A stretch of DNA of 64,000 bases from Gemmatimonadota bacterium (GTDB taxonomy: Bacteria; Gemmatimonadota; Gemmatimonadetes; Longimicrobiales; Gaopeijiaceae): positions 1 to 64,000 of the forward strand of contig JAJDXG010000030.1 in NCBI GenBank assembly GCA_022823365.1, read 5' to 3'. Position numbers and translations under genes: made by a program. Under the pieces are notes generated by a model. It was not told the origin of the DNA. It searched no databases and saw nothing but the letters and a program-made list of their open reading frames with translations. This document shows, one piece after another, positions 45,699 to 56,576 of this stretch. Each line of letters begins with the position of its first letter. Position 1 is the stretch's first letter.

Positions 45699-45748
45699 AC
45701 ACGCGCCCCGCCGCAGGCGCGCCCAAGGCGGGAGTGGTTCAGGAATCG

Positions 45749-46411
45749 ATGCTGAAGATTGTTATCGCGATCCTCGCGGCCGTGCTCGCGGTCACCCCGC
45801 CCGTCGAACCGACGCTCACCATCGCGCGCCTTCAGTACGACGGAGGAGGGGACTGGTATGCGAACCCGTCCTCGCTGGCCAATCTGCTGGAGCGAATCGC
45901 GGCCGACACCGGGTTGCCGGTGGCGGATCGTGAAGCCACCATCACCCTCCGGGATCCCGCGCTGCCCGACTACCCCTACGTCTACATGACCGGCCACGGA
46001 AACGTGAGTTTCGCGCTGGAGGAGCAGGGCGCGCTGCGCGACTACCTGTTGGGAGGGGGCTTCCTGCATGTCGACGACAACTACGGTCTCGACGAATCCT
46101 TCCGCCGGGAGATGGCGCGCGTGTTCCCCGGCCGCGAACTCGTGGAGATCCCCCCCGATCATCCGGTCTTCGGCGCCTTTCACCTGTTCCCGGAAGGCCT
46201 GCCCAAGATCCATGAGCACGACGGAGGCCCGCCCCAGGCCTTCGGCCTCTTCGAGCGCGGCCGGCTGATGCTGTTCTACAGCTACGAAAGCGATCTGGGA
46301 GACGGCTGGGAGGATCCCGAGGTGCACGAAGATCCCCCCGAGACCCGCGAGCAGGCGTTGCGCATGGGCGTGAACCTGTTCGTTTACGCCATCACCCGGG
46401 GGGCCTCGTGA
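45749..46411 (+). CDS. DUF4159-family exported protein
   Basis: 220 residues from ATG 45749, with AGGA upstream; a GTG at 45734 adds five residues. An N-terminal hydrophobic segment (MLKIVIAILAAVLAVTPPVEP) looks like a signal peptide. The rest is the DUF4159 domain: YVYMTGHGNVSFAL, GGGFLHVDDNYGLDESFRREM, HPVFGAFHLFPEGLPKIHEHDGG and NLFVYAIT. DUF4159 has a flavodoxin/GATase-like fold and unknown function, and often accompanies MoxR, DUF58 and von Willebrand-type proteins; none of those are here. It overlaps the DUF4175 gene in GTGA. Confidence 0.85.
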   Translation: MLKIVIAILAAVLAVTPPVEPTLTIARLQYDGGGDWYANPSSLANLLERIAADTGLPVADREATITLRDPALPDYPYVYMTGHGNVSFALEEQGALRDYLLGGGFLHVDDNYGLDESFRREMARVFPGRELVEIPPDHPVFGAFHLFPEGLPKIHEHDGGPPQAFGLFERGRLMLFYSYESDLGDGWEDPEVHEDPPETREQALRMGVNLFVYAITRGAS

Positions 46412-49400
46412 GCCCGGCGGTCCGCCCGAGCGTCCGCGGCGCGTTCGAGGCCGTGCGCGGTCACGTCCGAACCCGCTTCGGGATGGCGGGGATGCTGTGG
46501 GCGACCGTTCCCGTGGCCGTCACCCTGATGCTCGCGTGGTGGCTGGGCGGTGCGGCGGGGTGGCGTCAGGGAAGCGCGGCGCCGCTGATCCTGGACGGGC
46601 TCGCGATCGCCGCAGTCGCTGCCCTGGTCGCTTCGCTGCTCCGGCTCCGGCGCCGCTGGCTCGACGAAGCCAGCGTCGCCACAACCATGGAGGAAGCGGC
46701 CGGTCTGGCCCGCGGGGTAGTGCGCGGCTCGCTCGAACTCTCCCGTTCGGTTCCGCCCGGCGTATCGGCCGCGCTGGCACGCCGTGCCGAAGCGCGGGTT
46801 GCGGGGCGCCTCACGTCCCCCACGTCCGTGCTGGCCGGAAAGCTCCACCGGCGCAGCGGTCGCTGGATGCGCTTCGGGGCGGGGGCGCTGGTGGTGGCCT
46901 GCGTACCCGTGATTTCCGCGTGGGTCGCATCGCCGGAGCGGTCGCGGCTCGCGTGGTCGGGGCTCGCGACTCCCTTCGGGGTGATGGCGAGCCCGCGCTA
47001 TGCCCCTCTGGCGGTCCGGCCGGGGGACATCGAGGTCGCCCGGGGGTCGGACGTCGCCATCGAGGTCGAAACGATGGGACGACTCGAGGTTACGCTGCAT
47101 TCCCGCGCGCCCGGAGACGTACCGCGCGCCGACACGCGCCGGATGCCCGACAGCGTCGCAACGTTCCGGTTCAACGCCGTGGAAACCGCCTTCGAGTACT
47201 GGGCGTCGGCCCCTGACGGGAGCATGAGCGAGCGCTACCGGGTCACGCCGGTGGACCCGCTGTTCGTGGCGGATCTGACCCTGCAGCTTACCTTCCCTCC
47301 CCACACCGGCCGGTATGCGGAGGAGTACAGGGGATCCGCGCCCGCTCTGAGCGTTCCGGTGGGCACCCGCGTACGAGTGGAAGGGCGCGCCAGCCGCGAG
47401 CTTCAGGTGGCCAGCCTCGCGGTCGAGGAGCCGGGCGGGGCGGCTGTCGCCCTCCAGGTCGACGGCCCCCGCTTCCTTGCCGACTGGACACCGCGTGTCG
47501 GGGGCGTATACCACTGGCATCTCGTCGATGCGCGCGGCGGCGGTCCGGAGATCCCGCCCGTTCCGCTCGACATCACCCTGGTGCGCGACTCGGTGCCCGC
47601 CGTCGCCATCGTGTTTCCCGGCCGTGACACCGTTCTGCCGCTCTCGATGGAGCAGCCGCTGGTCGTTCAGGCTCAAGACGACTACGGACTCGCTTCCGTC
47701 GAGCTGGTGGCGTACCGGGTGCGGTCTCTGGGGGCACCCGAGGATCCGGTCGTGCGCAGGATGGGCATGGCCGGCACCAGGAGCGCGCTCGTGCGCCCGC
47801 TCCTGGACGTTTCCGACTGGGGGCTGCTCGCGGGCGACGTGGTTCGCTACCGGGCGCGCGTGCTCGACAACGCACCGTCGCCGCAGATCGGCGAGAGCCC
47901 GGAATACGTGCTCCGCATGCCGGAGGCTTCGGAGCTTCGCTGGCAGGCCCAGCAGATGCTCGAGGACGCGGCGGCCGAGGTCGAGTCGCTGGCTGAACAG
48001 GCGGGAGAAGCGGCCGAGGAGACCCGCGAGCTGGAGCGGCGCAATCAGGCGGAGCTCGCCGAAGAGCGCCGGAACCCTGGAAGGCAGGGCGAGGAAGAGC
48101 TGAGCTTCGAGGAGCAGGAGGAGTTGCGGCAGGCGCTCGAGGCGCAGGAGGAACTGGCCGCCGAGGTGGATTCGCTGAGGCAGGAGCTGGAGGAGGTCTC
48201 CGAGTCCATGCGCCAGGCAGGTCTGCCGGATCCCGAGTTCAGGGAGGAGATGGAGGAGCTTCAGCGACTGCTCGAGGAGATGATGCCGGAGGAGCTGCGC
48301 GAACGCATGGAAGACATGGCGCGCAACCTGGAGGAGATGGACGAAGCCGCGTCGCTGGAAGCGCTGGAGCAGCTCGCGCAGGACCAGGAGGAAATGCGCC
48401 AGCGTCTGGAGGAATCCATCGAGCGCTTCCGCCGTGCCGCAACGGAACAGGAACTGCGCGCCGCCGAGGAGGAGGCTGCGGAGTTGGCGCGCAGGGAGGA
48501 TGCGCTCGCCGACGCGATGGAGGAGGGGGACACCCTCGACCTGCGCGCGCGCCAGCAGGCCGACCTGGAGCGGCAGACCGAAGCGCTCCTGGAGCGCATG
48601 GAGGAGGCGCGCGAGCACCTCGACGACCTGGGGGAGCAACAGGCCGGAGACCGCGCCGAGACCGCGGGCGAGCGTACCGACGAAGCGCGCCGCCACATGG
48701 CCGAAGCCCGCGAGCAGGCGGAGGCGGGAGAAGCACAGTCGGCCGCGCAGGAGGCCAGAGAGGCGGCCGAGGCGCTCAGGGAAGCACAGGAGGCGCTGGC
48801 GGAGGCGCGCGCCGAGATGACGGAATCCATGGATGCCGCCGCCCGCGAGGCGCTCCGGCAGACGGCGGAGGATGCGCTCTCCCTCGCCCGCCAGCAGGCC
48901 GCGTTGCGCGAGCAGATGCGGCGCGCGAACACGGAGCAGCAGGCGGCCATGCGGGCCGATGAGGCGTCGCTTCTGCGTGGCGTGCGCAACATGGCCGAGA
49001 ACCTGAGCGCCGGATCGCGCGCCTCCGGCCAGGTCGATCGCGCGGTCAGCACTGCCATCGGCGAAGCCATGGAAGCCATCACCGAGACGCTGGAGGCGCT
49101 CGACAGCCGGCGCGGGTCGACGCCGTCTCCGACCGCGACCGCCGAGGCGGCGGTCCGCGCGCTCAACCAGGTTGCGCTCCAGGCCATCGCAGGCGCCGGG
49201 CAGTCAGGGCAGGATGCGGCCTCGGGCGGAGCCGGAGAGATGCAGGAGATGCTCGAGGCGATCGCCCAGCGACAGGGTGATCTGATCCTGCAGACCGAGG
49301 AACTCATGCCAATGCAGCTGGGCGAGCAGGCGCTCGCCAGGCAGATGCAGCAGCTCTCGCAGGGTCAGGAGGCGGTGGCCGGCGAGCTCGGTGATCTGGC

Positions 49401-49788
49401 GCAGCAGCCGAACTCCGAAGAGCAGGCGCTCGGGGATCTTGATGAGCTTGCGCAGGAGGCGGCCGCCCTGGCCGAGGAACTCGCGATGGAACGCCTGCGT
49501 GCGGAAACCATCGAACGCCAGGAGCAACTCTTCCAGCGCTTGCTGGACGCCGGGCGAAGCCTCGAGCGGGACGAGGAGTCGGAGGAGCGGGAATCCGAGG
49601 TTCCCGGAGAATTCGAGCGAAACGTCGTAGGGCCTCTTTCGGAAGAGGACCTTAACGCGCTCCGGTTCGAGCTTCCCCCCGCGGATGTGCTGGGTCGCCT
49701 GCCCCCGGCACAGAGGCGCCTGGTGATCGAGTACTTCGAGCGCCTCAACCAGGCTGCCACCACCGTGCCCCCGGGAGGCGGGTCGTGA
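46408..49788 (+). CDS. Large DUF4175-like membrane protein with an extended coiled coil
   Basis: 1126 residues. Three membrane helices are visible near the N-terminus (about 29-46, 60-80 and 152-170). A periplasmic beta-rich part follows (about 190-500), with Ig-like blocks such as YRVTPVDPLFVADLTLQLTFPP. From about 510 to 1075 the chain is almost pure Glu/Gln/Ala/Arg/Leu/Met helix, a long coiled coil. The layout is that of DUF4175 proteins, whose function is not known. It has 4-bp overlaps with the genes on both sides, which implies equal synthesis of the four proteins. Confidence 0.82.
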   Translation: MSPAVRPSVRGAFEAVRGHVRTRFGMAGMLWATVPVAVTLMLAWWLGGAAGWRQGSAAPLILDGLAIAAVAALVASLLRLRRRWLDEASVATTMEEAAGLARGVVRGSLELSRSVPPGVSAALARRAEARVAGRLTSPTSVLAGKLHRRSGRWMRFGAGALVVACVPVISAWVASPERSRLAWSGLATPFGVMASPRYAPLAVRPGDIEVARGSDVAIEVETMGRLEVTLHSRAPGDVPRADTRRMPDSVATFRFNAVETAFEYWASAPDGSMSERYRVTPVDPLFVADLTLQLTFPPHTGRYAEEYRGSAPALSVPVGTRVRVEGRASRELQVASLAVEEPGGAAVALQVDGPRFLADWTPRVGGVYHWHLVDARGGGPEIPPVPLDITLVRDSVPAVAIVFPGRDTVLPLSMEQPLVVQAQDDYGLASVELVAYRVRSLGAPEDPVVRRMGMAGTRSALVRPLLDVSDWGLLAGDVVRYRARVLDNAPSPQIGESPEYVLRMPEASELRWQAQQMLEDAAAEVESLAEQAGEAAEETRELERRNQAELAEERRNPGRQGEEELSFEEQEELRQALEAQEELAAEVDSLRQELEEVSESMRQAGLPDPEFREEMEELQRLLEEMMPEELRERMEDMARNLEEMDEAASLEALEQLAQDQEEMRQRLEESIERFRRAATEQELRAAEEEAAELARREDALADAMEEGDTLDLRARQQADLERQTEALLERMEEAREHLDDLGEQQAGDRAETAGERTDEARRHMAEAREQAEAGEAQSAAQEAREAAEALREAQEALAEARAEMTESMDAAAREALRQTAEDALSLARQQAALREQMRRANTEQQAAMRADEASLLRGVRNMAENLSAGSRASGQVDRAVSTAIGEAMEAITETLEALDSRRGSTPSPTATAEAAVRALNQVALQAIAGAGQSGQDAASGGAGEMQEMLEAIAQRQGDLILQTEELMPMQLGEQALARQMQQLSQGQEAVAGELGDLAQQPNSEEQALGDLDELAQEAAALAEELAMERLRAETIERQEQLFQRLLDAGRSLERDEESEERESEVPGEFERNVVGPLSEEDLNALRFELPPADVLGRLPPAQRRLVIEYFERLNQAATTVPPGGGS

Positions 49789-51569
49789 ACGACGGCACCC
49801 GGCGGACGCTGTCGGCAGTTCCCTGGCTCGCGATCAGCGCGGCGCTTGCGCTCGCACCTGCCACGGCGGACGGCCAGTTGTCCTCGAGCGAGGAATCCCG
49901 GCTGCTGCGCGAGGCTGCGCGCGCCGAGTCGGCGGGAGATTACGCCGCCTCGGTCGAGATCCTCACCTCGCTGCTGGCGGAGCGGCCTGCTTCCTCGGGA
50001 GCCATCTTCGCCCTGGAGCGCGTGCTGCGGGCACAGGACCGGGTGTCGCAGGTTCTGGATCCCATCGACGCGTTCCTGGCGGTCGACCCCGTGTCCACGG
50101 GCCCCCGCTACCTCAAGCTGAGGATTCTCCTGGAGGTCGATTCCCTGGCTGAACTGCGTTCCGCGGCGCAGTCCTGGATCGCGCAGAACCCGGCCTCGCC
50201 GGATTCCTATCGCGAAGTCGCGCGAGTGTACGAACGGGCGTTCGGGGGCGAGGAAGCCCTCTCCGTGCTTCGGCGGGGGCAGAGCCGCGCGGGTGGTGGA
50301 GTCCTCGCCGTCGAAGCCGGAGATGTCCTGCTTCGCCTCGATCGTCCGTTGGAGGCCATGATGGAGTGGGCGCGCGCCCTCGACGGCCCGGACGCCCAGG
50401 CGCCCGGGGCCCTGAGGCGGATGGTGCGCACCGGCGGGGAGCATCCCGGGTTGGCACCCGCGGTGGTTCGCGAGCTGGCGGCGGAAGGTGCGTCCGAAAC
50501 GCGCAGGCGGGCGGCCATCGAGATCGCGCTCGAAGCTCGCCTGCAGCCGGAGGCGCTGAGTCTTGCGGAGGAGGTTGCGGGAGATCTTCCCGAGCGTGAG
50601 CGCGAGGGCTTCCTGAACGCAGTGCTGCGGCTCGCCGAGGAAAAGGACGCCGATCAGCTCGCGCTGTGGACGCTGCAGCAGTTGCGCCGGGAGACTCCCA
50701 GGGGTTCACGAGCGCGCACGCTGGATCGACAGATCGCAGTCACCTCGCTCGTGGCCGGCGATACCGTGCGCGCGCTGGAGGCCAGGGAGCGGTACGCCCG
50801 CGGACTGCCCGAGCGCTCGCCGGAGCGGCGGCGGGCTCTCGCCGAGATGATTCGACTGGAGACGGCGACCGGCGCTCCCCTTGCGCTGCTCGACCGCTTC
50901 GCGGCCTTCCGCGAGGAGTTTCCGAACGCACCCGAAGCCGATCCGCTGGCAGTGGCGCTTTCGGCACGCTTCCGCGAGAACGGCGACCTGGAAACCGCGG
51001 CGTTCGTGCTGGAAGGGGTTCAGGGTCCGCTGAGCGCCCAGGAGCGTGCGTGGCTGGCGCTCGAGGCAGGCAACCGGGAGAGCGCGCGGATCAACCTGAT
51101 GCTCGCCGCTGGCGGACTGCCCGCAACCGAGGCCACGGCGATCGTGCAGTTGATCGGCATCCTGGACCGGGTCGGCGAGCAAGCGGCCGCGCTGGCGGGC
51201 AGGGTGTCCATCGCGCGCCACAGGGAGGGCGCGGGTGCGGCGTTCCCGCTGGTGAACGATGCGGTGCACGCCCTGCCCCCCGACGACCAGCCGCCCCTCC
51301 TCGCCATGGCCGCCCGCATCGCCGACGAAATCGACCAGCAGGGCGAGGCGGCGCGCCTGCGCGAATCTCTGGCCGCCACCTTTCCGGAGTCGAGCGAGGC
51401 GCCGGAGGCCATCCTGCATCTGGCGCGCTACCGGGCGGCCACCCCCACCGGCGTGCCGGCCGCCATCGAGCTGCTCGAGGAGCTCATTCTGGCCCGTCCC
51501 AACAGCGCGGTCGTACCGGTGGCCCGCCGCGAACTGGAACGCCTGAGGGCGTCCGGAGGTGCATCGTGA
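49785..51569 (+). CDS. Exported TPR-like helical repeat protein
   Basis: 594 residues. A cleavable signal peptide is likely (LAISAALALAPATADGQ, residues about 15-31). The rest is all-helical, with repeated helix pairs of about 34 residues such as LLREAARAESAGDYAASVEILTSLLAERP and VILERGREA-like stretches; TPR-type spacing is clear in the first 150 residues and degenerate later. No catalytic motif is seen. Such proteins usually act as periplasmic scaffolds. It is coupled by GTGA to DUF4175 before it and to the GATase-like gene after it. Confidence 0.75.
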   Translation: MNDGTRRTLSAVPWLAISAALALAPATADGQLSSSEESRLLREAARAESAGDYAASVEILTSLLAERPASSGAIFALERVLRAQDRVSQVLDPIDAFLAVDPVSTGPRYLKLRILLEVDSLAELRSAAQSWIAQNPASPDSYREVARVYERAFGGEEALSVLRRGQSRAGGGVLAVEAGDVLLRLDRPLEAMMEWARALDGPDAQAPGALRRMVRTGGEHPGLAPAVVRELAAEGASETRRRAAIEIALEARLQPEALSLAEEVAGDLPEREREGFLNAVLRLAEEKDADQLALWTLQQLRRETPRGSRARTLDRQIAVTSLVAGDTVRALEARERYARGLPERSPERRRALAEMIRLETATGAPLALLDRFAAFREEFPNAPEADPLAVALSARFRENGDLETAAFVLEGVQGPLSAQERAWLALEAGNRESARINLMLAAGGLPATEATAIVQLIGILDRVGEQAAALAGRVSIARHREGAGAAFPLVNDAVHALPPDDQPPLLAMAARIADEIDQQGEAARLRESLAATFPESSEAPEAILHLARYRAATPTGVPAAIELLEELILARPNSAVVPVARRELERLRASGGAS

Positions 51570-52849
51570 ACGCTTCTTGCCGGTCGAGAGCCGGGCGGTG
51601 CTTCGCCCGGACGACACTGCTCACGGCGTTGTTGCTGGCGCCGGCAGCCCTGCGGGCCCAGCATCTGCTGGTGCCGATGGACCAGGGTCAGGACGATCAC
51701 CTGAAAGCCTACGGCCTCACCTACTGGAGCCTCGAGCGGGGCGCGACCGCGGAGTGGCTGCTCAACTACCGGGACGGCGCCTTCCTCTTGCCGGACAGGC
51801 AGGACGTTCGTCGGGAAGCAGCGTTTCGCGGCGTCAGCATCGAGCCGGTGAGCGCCGCCGACGTAGCGGCCATCCGCGCGCTGATCGCGCGCTCCAACAT
51901 GGAGTCGGTGATCCTCGAGAAGGCGCCCAGCGTGGCAATCTACACGCCCGCCAACACTACGCCCTGGGACGACGCCGTAACGATGGCGCTCGAATATGCG
52001 GGCATCACCTACGACAAGGTCTGGGATCCGGAGGTCCTGAACGGGGATCTGGAAAACTACGAATGGCTCCATCTCCACCACGAGGACTTCACGGGCCAGT
52101 ACTCCAAGTTCTTCATCACCTACGCGGGAGCTCCCTGGCTGCAGGAGGAGGTGGCCCGCAACCAGGAGGTGGCGGCCGCGTTCGGGTATCCGCACGTGCC
52201 CGCGCTCAAGAAGGCGGTTGCGAGCGTGATTCTGGACTACGTCGAGGCAGGCGGTTTCCTCTTTGCCATGTGCTCGGCAACCGAGACGCTCGGCCTGGCG
52301 CTGGCGGCCCGGGAGGCCGACATCGCGGCGGCGTTCGCCGACGGCACTCCGCCCGCCCTCGACGCCTCGGCACACATGCAGTGGGGCCGGGCGCTGGGGT
52401 TCCAGAACGCCGAAGTGCAGCTCTCTCCGTCGGTCAACGCGTTCAGCGACATCGACGGTCATCAGGTGAACACCCCGTGGCGCGAGGAACTGGGAACGTT
52501 CACGCTCTTCGAGTTCTCGGCCAAGCTGGATCCCGTGCCGTCGATGCTGACGCAGAGCCATGAGGACGTGCTCTCCGACTTCTACGGGCTCACCACGTCC
52601 TTCCGCCTGGACCGCATCAAGCCGGGCGCCATCGTCCTCGCGCAGGAGGGCGGATGGGCCAAGTACATCCACGGAAACCGGGGCGAGGGCACGTGGACTT
52701 TCTACGGCGGGCACGACCCGGAAGACCCCGAGCACCAGATCGGCGATCCCCCCACGGATCTCTCGCTGCACGCCAATTCGAGCGGCTACCGCCTGATCCT
52801 GAACAACGTCCTCTTCCCGGCGGCTCGCAAGAAGCAGCGCAAGACATAG
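51566..52849 (+). CDS. Exported GATase-like protein (often labelled asparagine synthetase B)
   Basis: 427 residues from GTG 51566, overlapping the previous stop. A signal peptide ends near AALRAQ (about 32). The mature start HLLVPMDQGQDDHLKAYGLTYWSLERGATAEWLLNYRDG matches a family that databases sometimes name asparagine synthetase B. Neither the N-terminal Cys of a glutamine-hydrolysing domain nor an ATP pyrophosphatase P-loop exists, so that name is misleading. The segment from about 125 on (VAIYTPANTTPWDDAVTMALEYAGITYDKVWD) and GGFLFAMCSATETLGLAL, with Cys236 at a nucleophile-elbow position, suggests a class I amidotransferase-like fold. Function is unknown. Confidence 0.72.
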   Translation: MNASCRSRAGRCFARTTLLTALLLAPAALRAQHLLVPMDQGQDDHLKAYGLTYWSLERGATAEWLLNYRDGAFLLPDRQDVRREAAFRGVSIEPVSAADVAAIRALIARSNMESVILEKAPSVAIYTPANTTPWDDAVTMALEYAGITYDKVWDPEVLNGDLENYEWLHLHHEDFTGQYSKFFITYAGAPWLQEEVARNQEVAAAFGYPHVPALKKAVASVILDYVEAGGFLFAMCSATETLGLALAAREADIAAAFADGTPPALDASAHMQWGRALGFQNAEVQLSPSVNAFSDIDGHQVNTPWREELGTFTLFEFSAKLDPVPSMLTQSHEDVLSDFYGLTTSFRLDRIKPGAIVLAQEGGWAKYIHGNRGEGTWTFYGGHDPEDPEHQIGDPPTDLSLHANSSGYRLILNNVLFPAARKKQRKT

Positions 52850-52855
52850 CAGCCC

Positions 52856-55504
52856 TTGGATAACGCGGGTGGCAGGGAAGATGAACCTACCGGCCTCCGC
52901 TCCGTGACCCCCGGGCGGTCTCGTCCCCGGCCCGATCTCGTCCTTGCTCCCGAGGCGGCGGGCCGCATGCGCGAGCAGGTCGCGCGCGCGGGCGGGCGCG
53001 AGGTCAGCTTTCTGGCCACCGTGACCCCCGAGCGCGTCATCGTTGACCCGCGCACTGTGGCCAGGGGCAATCGAGCCGCCGTGCTCGCCGCCGCCAATGA
53101 CGCGCGCACCGGCGAGATCATGCTGCACAACCACCCCTCGGGGGTGCTGGAGCCCTCCGACGCGGACCTCCACGTGGCCGGCCAGCTCTACGAGCAGGGC
53201 GTCGGCAGCGCCATCGTCGACAACCTGGTGCGGGCGATATACGTGGTGGTGGAGCCGCCGCCGCCGTCGTCGCGCGAACCCCTGGACATCCCCGAACTGG
53301 AGGCGGTGGCCGCCCCGGGCGGCGCCCTGTCGCGCCTGCACGGGCGCTATGAGGATCGTCCGGGCCAGCGCGCCATGCTGGCGGAGGTGGCGCGAGCATA
53401 CAACCAGGGAGGGGTGACCCTGGTGGAGGCCGGCACCGGCACCGGCAAGTCGGTCGCCTATCTGCTGCCCGCGGCCCGCTGGGCGATCCGCAACAAGGAA
53501 CGCACGATCGTCTCCACCAACACCATCAACCTGCAGGAACAACTCGTCGCCAAGGATCTTCCCCTCGTGCGCGAGCTTCTGGGAGAGGACTTCCGCTGGG
53601 CGCTGATGAAGGGCCGGGGGAACTACATCTCCATCCGCCGCGCGCATCTGGCGGCGGAAGGCGCGGCCACCCTCTTCGAGGAAGACCGCACCCGCGAAGT
53701 CAACGGGCTGCTCGACTGGATCGCCGCGACGGAGGACGGATCGCTCGCAGACCTGGCGACCGCCCCGTCCCGCGAGGTATGGGAGGAAGTGCAGTCCGAC
53801 TCCGACATCTGCCTGCACACCCGGTGTCCGCACTTCCAGTCCTGCTTCTACCAGCGCTCGCGCCGGGTTGCGGCATCGGCCGACGTGCTGGTGGTGAACC
53901 ACCACCTGCTCTTCTCCGACCTCTCCCTGCGCATCGTCACCGACAACTTCACCCAGTCCGCGGCGCTGCCGGCGTACCGGCGACTGATTCTCGACGAAGC
54001 GCACAACGTCGAAGACGCCGCCACCAGCCACCTGGGTGCAAGCCTGAGCCGAAAAGGGCTGAGCGCCACGCTGACCCGCCTGGAGCGCGTGGCGGGCGTG
54101 GTGCGCCGCAAACTCACCGGCCTGCCCGCGGCTACGGGAGATGGCGTGCAGCCGGAGGGCTCCCTGCCAGGTCCCGCCGCGAAACCGCTTCTGGACCGCC
54201 TCGGGGACCGGGTGCTCCCATCGCTCACGCGAGCGCGCGCGGCATTCAGGGCCTTCTTCGAGATCCTCGACGAGATGGCGGCCCTGCCCGGAGGGGTGCG
54301 CGTCAGGCTGGGTTCCGAGCAGCTCCCCGAACCGATCGACCGGGCACGCGTCCATGAGAACTTCAGCGCGCTGCTGGACGCGCTCGCCGGGCTGGCGCGC
54401 GAAGTATCCGAACTGTCCCTGCGGATCGAGCTCACCGACGAGTGGCGTGAACCGCTGGAGGGAAGGATCCTCGACCTGCGCAGCATCGAGCGCCGCCTGA
54501 CCAACGCATCGCGGAGCCTGCGCCTCGTCCTGGATCCGGCGGAGGACGGACAGCGATACGTTCGCTGGGTGGAGCAGAGAAGTGCCCGGCGCGGCAAACG
54601 GCGCAACCTGCACCTCGCCGCCGCGCCCATCGAGCTGGACGAACTGCTCAGAGAACAGTTGTTCGAGCGGGTTCGCACGACCGTGCTTACCTCCGCGACC
54701 TTGACCACGCGCCAGGACTTCAGCTTTCTGCGAAGGCGCCTCGGGCTCGCGCGCGGACCCGGGGATGAGGGCGCCCTGAAGGTCGCTGAAGCACGCATCG
54801 ACTCTCCTTTCGACTTCGGTGCGCAGACCCTGCTCTGCGTCCCGTCGGATCTGCCCCGGCCATCGTTCGGAAGTGCGGCGGGGAGCGGCTCCTTCGATCG
54901 TGCCACGGCCCGCGCCGTGGCCGCGCTCGCCGACATCTCCCAGGGTGGACTGTTCGCCCTCTTCACCTCGCATCGGGCTCTGCGTGCGGTGGCGGAAGCT
55001 CTTCGGGCGGGGGGAGCGGGATCCTGGCCGCTGCTCGTGCACGGCGAGGATGACAGATCCCGGCTCCTGGCCCGCTTTGTCGAGGCGGGCAACGCCATCC
55101 TGCTGGGCACCTCATCCTTCTGGGAGGGAGTGGACGTGCCCGGCCGCCCCCTGCGCGCGCTGCTCATCCAGAAGCTTCCGTTCAGCGTCCCCACGGATCC
55201 CGTGGTCGAGGCACGCATGGAAGCCATCGAGGCGGCCGGAGAGAACCCCTTCCAGGAGCTCATGCTGCCACAGGCAGCGCTGCGCCTGCGCCAGGGATTC
55301 GGTCGCCTGGTGCGCTCGCGCCGGGACCGGGGCGCCGTGGTCCTTCTCGACTCCCGGATCGTCAAGTACCGATATGGCCGCTACCTGCTCGAGTCCCTCC
55401 CCCCGGCACCGCTCGCCCACGGGCCCTGGCGCCGCGTAGAGGAGTCCCTGCGAGCATTCTACGAGCCCGCCGGTAAACCGCAGGCCGCGCGGCAGACCGG
55501 ATAG
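52856..55504 (+). CDS. Fusion of a JAMM/JAB metalloprotease-like domain with a DinG/XPD-type helicase
   Basis: 882 residues from TTG 52856; GTG 52904 is an alternative. Residues about 28-135 form a JAB domain with the full JAMM signature: Glu49, then HNH (91-93), Ser101 and Asp104, exactly H-x-H-x7-S-x2-D. Residues about 160-880 are a superfamily 2 helicase of the DinG family: Walker A GTGTGKS (193-199), DEAH in LILDEAHNVED, and SSFWEGVDVPG with a C-terminal helicase lobe. The Fe-S cysteines C319, C324 and C330 have the DinG spacing, but the first position, in KGRGNYIS, is Ser259. It sits 6 bp after the GATase-like gene. Cellular role is unknown; DNA repair or replication is a reasonable guess. 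Confidence 0.85.
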   Translation: MDNAGGREDEPTGLRSVTPGRSRPRPDLVLAPEAAGRMREQVARAGGREVSFLATVTPERVIVDPRTVARGNRAAVLAAANDARTGEIMLHNHPSGVLEPSDADLHVAGQLYEQGVGSAIVDNLVRAIYVVVEPPPPSSREPLDIPELEAVAAPGGALSRLHGRYEDRPGQRAMLAEVARAYNQGGVTLVEAGTGTGKSVAYLLPAARWAIRNKERTIVSTNTINLQEQLVAKDLPLVRELLGEDFRWALMKGRGNYISIRRAHLAAEGAATLFEEDRTREVNGLLDWIAATEDGSLADLATAPSREVWEEVQSDSDICLHTRCPHFQSCFYQRSRRVAASADVLVVNHHLLFSDLSLRIVTDNFTQSAALPAYRRLILDEAHNVEDAATSHLGASLSRKGLSATLTRLERVAGVVRRKLTGLPAATGDGVQPEGSLPGPAAKPLLDRLGDRVLPSLTRARAAFRAFFEILDEMAALPGGVRVRLGSEQLPEPIDRARVHENFSALLDALAGLAREVSELSLRIELTDEWREPLEGRILDLRSIERRLTNASRSLRLVLDPAEDGQRYVRWVEQRSARRGKRRNLHLAAAPIELDELLREQLFERVRTTVLTSATLTTRQDFSFLRRRLGLARGPGDEGALKVAEARIDSPFDFGAQTLLCVPSDLPRPSFGSAAGSGSFDRATARAVAALADISQGGLFALFTSHRALRAVAEALRAGGAGSWPLLVHGEDDRSRLLARFVEAGNAILLGTSSFWEGVDVPGRPLRALLIQKLPFSVPTDPVVEARMEAIEAAGENPFQELMLPQAALRLRQGFGRLVRSRRDRGAVVLLDSRIVKYRYGRYLLESLPPAPLAHGPWRRVEESLRAFYEPAGKPQAARQTG

Positions 55505-55849: not shown

Positions 55850-55937
55850 AAGGCCGAAACCGCACGCGGGCGCTGCCTCCGGCGGGTCCCGATCGACCTC
55901 TGCTCACCTCAACCACGGAAAGCACGGGCGCGTCCCC

Positions 55938-56576
55938 ATGAGCCTGAAGCAAATCCCTACCAAGATCGTGTGCGTGGGAAAGAACTACGCGCTGCACGCA
56001 CAGGAACTGGGCACCGAGGTTCCCCCTGAGCCGATCATCTTCCTGAAGCCGGTTTCCTCCCTGCTGGCCTCCGGTGAAACCATCCGGATGCCTTCGTGGG
56101 CCGGGCGGGTGGACTTCGAGGGAGAGATCGCGTTGGTGGTCGGGAAGCGTGCCCGCGGGGTGGCGCGCGAGGATGCCTGGGACGTGATCGATGCCATCGT
56201 GCCGCTGAACGACGTGACCGCGCGCGAGCTGCAGCGCCGGGACGGACAGTGGACGCGCGCCAAGAGCTTCGACACCTTCTGCCCCGTGGGTGAACCGGTC
56301 CCGGTGGCCGACGTGGATGTCGGTCAGCTCGAGGTGATCACGCGCGTCAACGGGCATGTGCGCCAGCACGCCCATGTGGACACCATGGTGTTCCCGATCC
56401 CCGAGCTTGTCCGCTTCATCACCGCGGTCATGACCCTCGAGCCCGGAGACCTGATCGCGACCGGCACGCCCGACGGCATCGGCCCGCTCGCTCCCGGCGA
56501 CCGGGTCGAAGTCGAGATCCCGGGCGTGGGGACGGTGGCCAACCCGGTGGCGGTGGAGGAGGTCGATTCGAGCTGA
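55938..56576 (+). CDS. Fumarylacetoacetate hydrolase (FAH) family protein
   Basis: 212 residues from ATG 55938; the frame is open further back but loses similarity. IVCVGKNYALHAQELGTEVPPEPIIFLKP is the family start. Metal-binding residues are present: Glu in VDFEGEIALVVGK, and the acidic cluster in AIVPLNDVTARELQ. GDLIATGTPDGIGPLAPGDRVEVEIPGVGTVANPV closes the fold. Members act as acylpyruvases, oxaloacetate decarboxylases or related C-C hydrolases; the substrate cannot be told from sequence. Stop and next start overlap in TGATG. Confidence 0.88.
   Translation: MSLKQIPTKIVCVGKNYALHAQELGTEVPPEPIIFLKPVSSLLASGETIRMPSWAGRVDFEGEIALVVGKRARGVAREDAWDVIDAIVPLNDVTARELQRRDGQWTRAKSFDTFCPVGEPVPVADVDVGQLEVITRVNGHVRQHAHVDTMVFPIPELVRFITAVMTLEPGDLIATGTPDGIGPLAPGDRVEVEIPGVGTVANPVAVEEVDSS

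Follow-up and report, generated by a model that had tools for sequence, protein, structure and literature searches.

RadC-like DinG of Gemmatimonadota: a RadC-type JAMM domain joined to a DinG/YoaA-type helicase

Closest described systems

Fusions of RadC to DinG/RAD3-like helicases were reported earlier by Aravind's group (Iyer 2011, cited in PMC5512222). As that citation presents the work, the helicase fusions led to the proposal of a nucleic-acid-processing role for RadC-type JAB domains, judged more probable than that of a ubiquitin-type peptidase, and the domains were argued to lack a groove for the ubiquitin tail. Characterised JAB enzymes are peptidases (PMC5512222), while RadC is listed among the JAMM proteins of unknown function (Ambroggio 2003, PMC300881). 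A subgroup named 'RadC-like DinG', with an E/H/H/D site into which zinc was modelled, is described by Cheng 2025 (PMC11981726, section 3.8); the DALI search of that review returned metalloproteases, not nucleases, and its text states that there is no research yet on the subgroup. Sister DinG subgroups carry N-terminal exo- or endonuclease domains, and the nuclease-type domain of ExoDinG/pExoDinG occurs in both active and degenerate forms, depending on the member (PMC11981726). Our literature search for 'RadC-like DinG' yielded Cheng's review only, and none of the papers searched described a RadC-type JAMM domain with an enzymatic activity. The substrate of these domains is a long-standing question.

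The window, a stretch of 64,000 nucleotides from a Gemmatimonadota bacterium, encodes a member of the RadC-like DinG subgroup. Like the published example from Desulfuromonas soudanensis, the protein has a RadC-like JAB N-terminus with the E/H/H/D site (Glu49, His91, His93, and Asp104) on a YoaA-like, DinG-type helicase, and its genome (98% complete) yielded no HolC homologue. It differs from the subgroup as described in that Ser replaces the first Cys of the iron-sulfur site, and in its host, Gemmatimonadota being a phylum unnamed in Cheng's main text. RadC itself (PF04002; 2qlc) has the HNHPSG-x3-PS-x2-D motif and the JAB fold in common with the window protein, whose JAB domain, however, has a helicase as its fusion partner where RadC has a helix-hairpin-helix region, matches the RadC profile only in part, and stays far under the NCBIfam RadC equivalog cut-off (26.2 bits vs 180). 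YoaA and DinG from E. coli share the complete SF2 helicase with its iron-sulfur region but have no JAB domain, and HolC, missing here, is the partner of YoaA. In ExoDinG and pExoDinG the same N-terminal slot holds an enzyme domain, active or degenerate depending on the member, which is a DnaQ-type exonuclease rather than a JAMM domain. The original prediction, which knew of no experimental description of this architecture, stands as far as experiments are concerned (PMC11981726), but the architecture itself is already in print (PMC11981726, PMC5512222). The additions made here are its phylum-wide conservation and synteny, the Ser-Cys-Cys-Cys site, about five separate losses of the JAMM site or of the whole domain with the helicase retained, and a JAB shell devoid of JAMM residues in Fusobacterium.

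Architecture of the Gemmatimonadota protein

Table 1. Features of the RadC-like DinG locus. Residue numbers count from TTG 52856 (882-aa frame) and are 16 too high if GTG 52904 is used.
Feature	Position	Strand	Basis
Upstream neighbour, secreted-looking, no Pfam family	51614..52849	+	conserved across most of the phylum
RadC-like DinG ORF (TTG start, 882 aa)	52856..55504	+	ORF listing, stop-free frame
GTG, likely true start codon (866-aa protein)	52904..52906	+	kept in genus; Ka/Ks raised in codons 1-26
RadC-type JAB/JAMM domain (residues 27-135)	52934..53260	+	Pfam PF04002 above cut-off; predicted fold like RadC 2qlc and JAMM proteases
JAMM Glu49	53000..53002	+	relatives' alignment
JAMM HNHPSG...PSxxD: His91, His93, Ser101, Asp104	53126..53167	+	invariant in 66 distinct intact relatives
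DinG/YoaA-type SF2 helicase (residues 161-854)	53336..55417	+	Pfam, NCBIfam, structure-sequence match
Walker A EAGTGTGKS	53426..53452	+	relatives' alignment
Iron-sulfur region: Ser259, Cys319, Cys324, Cys330 (SCCC)	53630..53845	+	relatives' alignment
Motif II DEAHN	53993..54007	+	relatives' alignment
Motif V GTSSFWEGVDV	55106..55138	+	relatives' alignment
Motif VI QGFGRLVRS	55292..55318	+	relatives' alignment
Downstream neighbour, fumarylacetoacetate hydrolase (FAA) family	55935..56576	+	conserved across most of the phylum

One gene joins a RadC-type JAMM domain to a complete DinG/YoaA-type helicase (Table 1). The original prediction had read the protein as an 882-residue chain from TTG 52856; this start should be revised, as GTG 52904 is found in all genus relatives compared, whereas TTG 52856 is a non-start codon in most of them. 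The protein therefore probably begins at GTG 52904 and comprises 866 residues. Codons upstream of residue 17 are variable in the alignment of genus relatives, and in pairs with the window gene Ka/Ks reaches 0.37-1.2 over codons 1-26, compared to 0.07-0.18 in the JAB domain. An artefact near 53330, by which an assembly or frame error would have fused neighbouring radC-like and dinG genes, is practically excluded: many independent genomes carry the identical in-frame junction, and the linker is free of stops and frameshifts.

The helicase part was predicted to be complete and DinG-like, as borne out by Pfam (Helicase_C_2, E 6.7e-44; DEAD and DEAD_2 above cut-off) and by the E. coli DinG structure 6fwr, which aligns to residues 165-854 (E 3.3e-45). 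The best NCBIfam matches are DNA repair helicase YoaA (551 bits, cut-off 680) and DinG, both under their equivalog cut-offs; type IV CRISPR-associated Csf4 (CasDinG) reaches 105.6 bits against a cut-off of 400. Ser259 (53630-53632) occupies the place of the first iron-sulfur Cys, and the Ser-Cys-Cys-Cys combination is present in 56 of the 81 aligned rows, the remaining 25 having four Cys. Three-cysteine variants are still counted as capable of binding a cluster (Cheng 2025, PMC11981726), and the site (S259, C319, C324, and C330) falls within the three-or-four-cysteine range of RadC-like DinG. In the region where the C-terminal alpha7 helix of MD2 was sought, the full-length model places a helix over residues 841-852, with pLDDT under 50.

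The JAMM signature announced for the N-terminal domain (E49, H91, H93, S101, and D104) is intact in the sequence, Glu49 lying within GREVSF and the other four residues within LHNHPSGVLEPSDADL, and is upheld by the alignment of relatives. The RadC family PF04002 of Pfam matches residues 60-114 with 25.7 bits against a cut-off of 22.1, and with 29.6 bits in a scan restricted to the domain; a search of the full protein against structures returned a weak match to RadC 2qlc over residues 76-115. The prediction further depended on this segment adopting a JAB fold, and that is what modelling gives: in a model of 139 residues built from 13 sequences (pLDDT 78, pTM 0.67), the top Foldseek match is the RadC crystal structure 2qlc (E 3.8e-06, TM 0.45-0.48), followed by structures of EMC, CSN5, Rpn11, PfJAMM1, and BubCD. 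A second structural aligner gave Z 7.7-9.5 over about 100-113 residues against JAMM/MPN proteins and RadC. As these fold-comparison values are moderate, the sequence match and the motif weigh as much as the fold. The protein thus combines the JAMM residues with the JAB fold, the two marks of JAMM/MPN+ proteins, and its sequence places the domain in the RadC branch of JAB rather than in Prok-JAB or MPN+.

The fold comparison bears directly on a peptidase reading, in which the JAMM domain would be a metallopeptidase or isopeptidase trimming crosslinked or modified proteins on DNA, with the helicase as its motor. Known JAMM enzymes are peptidases or isopeptidases, the fold predicted here resembles Rpn11, CSN5, PfJAMM1, and bacterial BubCD besides RadC, and Cheng's DALI search pointed in the same direction (PMC11981726). 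However, the sequence groups the domain with RadC; the groove for a ubiquitin tail is argued to be missing from RadC domains in the account of Iyer 2011 cited in PMC5512222; and no E1, E2, or ubiquitin-like gene occurs among the conserved neighbours examined. Such a peptidase is a tenable reading but an unlikely one.

Conservation and loss of the JAMM site

A relative of the gene is present in 167 of 200 genomes of the phylum Gemmatimonadota, and those tested among the genomes without one mostly have no DinG-family helicase whatever. Looking for the same fusion in other genomes, as had been proposed, gives an affirmative answer: fusion and all five JAMM residues are kept in 72 of the 81 aligned Gemmatimonadota loci, a set of rows that includes some near copies. 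Among 66 distinct JAB sequences, the median identity is 56% (minimum 38%), and the five JAMM residues belong to the 18 invariant columns. Ka/Ks of the JAB domain (0-0.18) is similar to that of the helicase, consistent with comparable purifying selection. Given this JAMM conservation, the similar purifying selection on both parts, and neighbours that stay in place in most loci, the gene is best regarded as a vertically inherited chromosomal component and the fusion as ancient and phylum-conserved. MAGs titled Gammaproteobacteria (L005, L006, L007, and L011) hold copies of the gene at 93-94% identity; the same cluster also includes entries titled Gemmatimonadetes or BD2-11, and the titles may be mislabelled.

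Departures from the pattern are of two kinds. In L039 (from G130, 1.8 Mb) and in L066 and L067 (from G120 and G108, 2.0 Mb), the JAB shell is still recognisable and the JAMM residues are substituted. The JAB domain is absent and the helicase present in L069, in L071, and in L070, L072, and L073 with L098. On the helicase tree these correspond to two degenerations and about three losses, i.e., about five separate events with the helicase retained, a count that is unsure as the FastTree reconstruction joins the long branches of L071, L066, and L067. Two further loci were left out of the losses: L074, truncated at the end of its contig, and L095, where the locus is cut and a 925-aa frame of the same genome has a JAB match. 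Outside the phylum, the N-terminus of the Fusobacterium vincentii DinG (L086, 3477-5945) can be aligned with 103 columns of the JAB profile at 17% identity (P 7e-5) and has no JAMM residue at all.

The putative catalytic site is dispensable in some lineages and rigidly kept wherever an intact domain remains. Its loss, or that of the whole domain, in lineages retaining the helicase means that the JAMM step would not be essential to the helicase. The JAB domain might then be mainly non-catalytic, a platform for DNA or partner binding that regulates the helicase in the manner of the pseudo-exonuclease DinG (pExoDinG). The shells emptied of JAMM residues, including that of F. vincentii, and the outright losses in several lineages would fit such a role; yet, save for the degenerate, domain-less, and cut rows, all five residues are invariant in sequences about 56% identical, a constraint that a pure scaffold would not require and that makes this reading rather improbable.

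The genome of the window has a separate, canonical stand-alone RadC on another contig (C31), and this gene is its sole DinG-family helicase. The three reduced genomes with a degenerate JAMM site in DinG (G130, G120, and G108) have no PF04002 match anywhere and hence no stand-alone RadC. A tie between the two losses was considered and rejected: G033 and G084 keep the JAMM site without a stand-alone RadC, and others have lost the JAB domain and keep RadC, so that no rule linking both losses can be drawn.

Proposed activity and genomic setting

With a probability of roughly one half, the protein is a chromosomal 5'-3' DNA-repair helicase of the DinG/YoaA kind, belonging to the RadC-like DinG subgroup, whose JAMM domain hydrolyses an exposed substrate, more likely a nucleic acid. 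At stalled forks, R-loops, or lesions, the helicase would load on single-stranded DNA and begin to unwind, and the N-terminal JAMM domain, potentially holding one zinc on His91, His93, and Asp104 with Glu49 as the general base, would perform a hydrolytic step on the substrate so exposed. The polarity and the zinc binding are expected from knowledge of the family. A nucleic-acid substrate appears likelier than a protein because sister DinG proteins fill the same N-terminal slot with exo- or endonuclease domains, and the parallel with ExoDinG/pExoDinG, whose nuclease-type domain in that slot is likewise active or degenerate, makes nucleic-acid processing the likeliest role. Against this best explanation stand the peptidase activity of the characterised JAB enzymes (PMC5512222) and the lineages that retain the helicase after losing the JAMM site or the whole domain. 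The full-length model is poor (pLDDT 49.5), and thus no domain arrangement backs a hand-over of the substrate from helicase to JAMM domain.

The original prediction interpreted the fusion as a helicase acting on a protein or modified substrate encountered on DNA, perhaps a crosslinked protein. Its fusion, JAMM signature, and DinG identity all hold, whereas the evidence does not point specifically to crosslinked proteins; a crosslink protease is a possible reading. That the protein is a helicase-guided JAMM enzyme, freeing DNA of covalently attached proteins or modified groups, seems quite doubtful; if true, it would represent a single-chain crosslink repair machine for bacteria. The phylum-wide fusion, with its natural losses of the catalytic residues only, is a good place for answering what RadC-type JAMM domains act on.

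A role in defence or on mobile elements was considered and set aside. Every PADLOC match was a look-alike of the DinG helicase type; no close viral relative came out of the viral scan, the phage matches listed starting after residue 144 and therefore without the JAB domain; the JAB domain by itself had no match among plasmids; and the conserved neighbours, free of any mobile or defence context, are ordinary chromosomal genes. In most loci, the secreted-looking protein lies upstream and the FAA hydrolase downstream; in some, the upstream slot holds rsmI and thioredoxin instead. In L008 (5156-5950), the DinG gene is separated from its conserved upstream neighbour by about 800 bases more than in the relatives of this locus. 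Farther upstream in the window, the run 45734-51569 encodes a DUF4159 protein (45734-46411), a coiled-coil protein of 1126 aa that weakly matches DUF4175, and a protein of 594 aa to which Pfam assigns no family.
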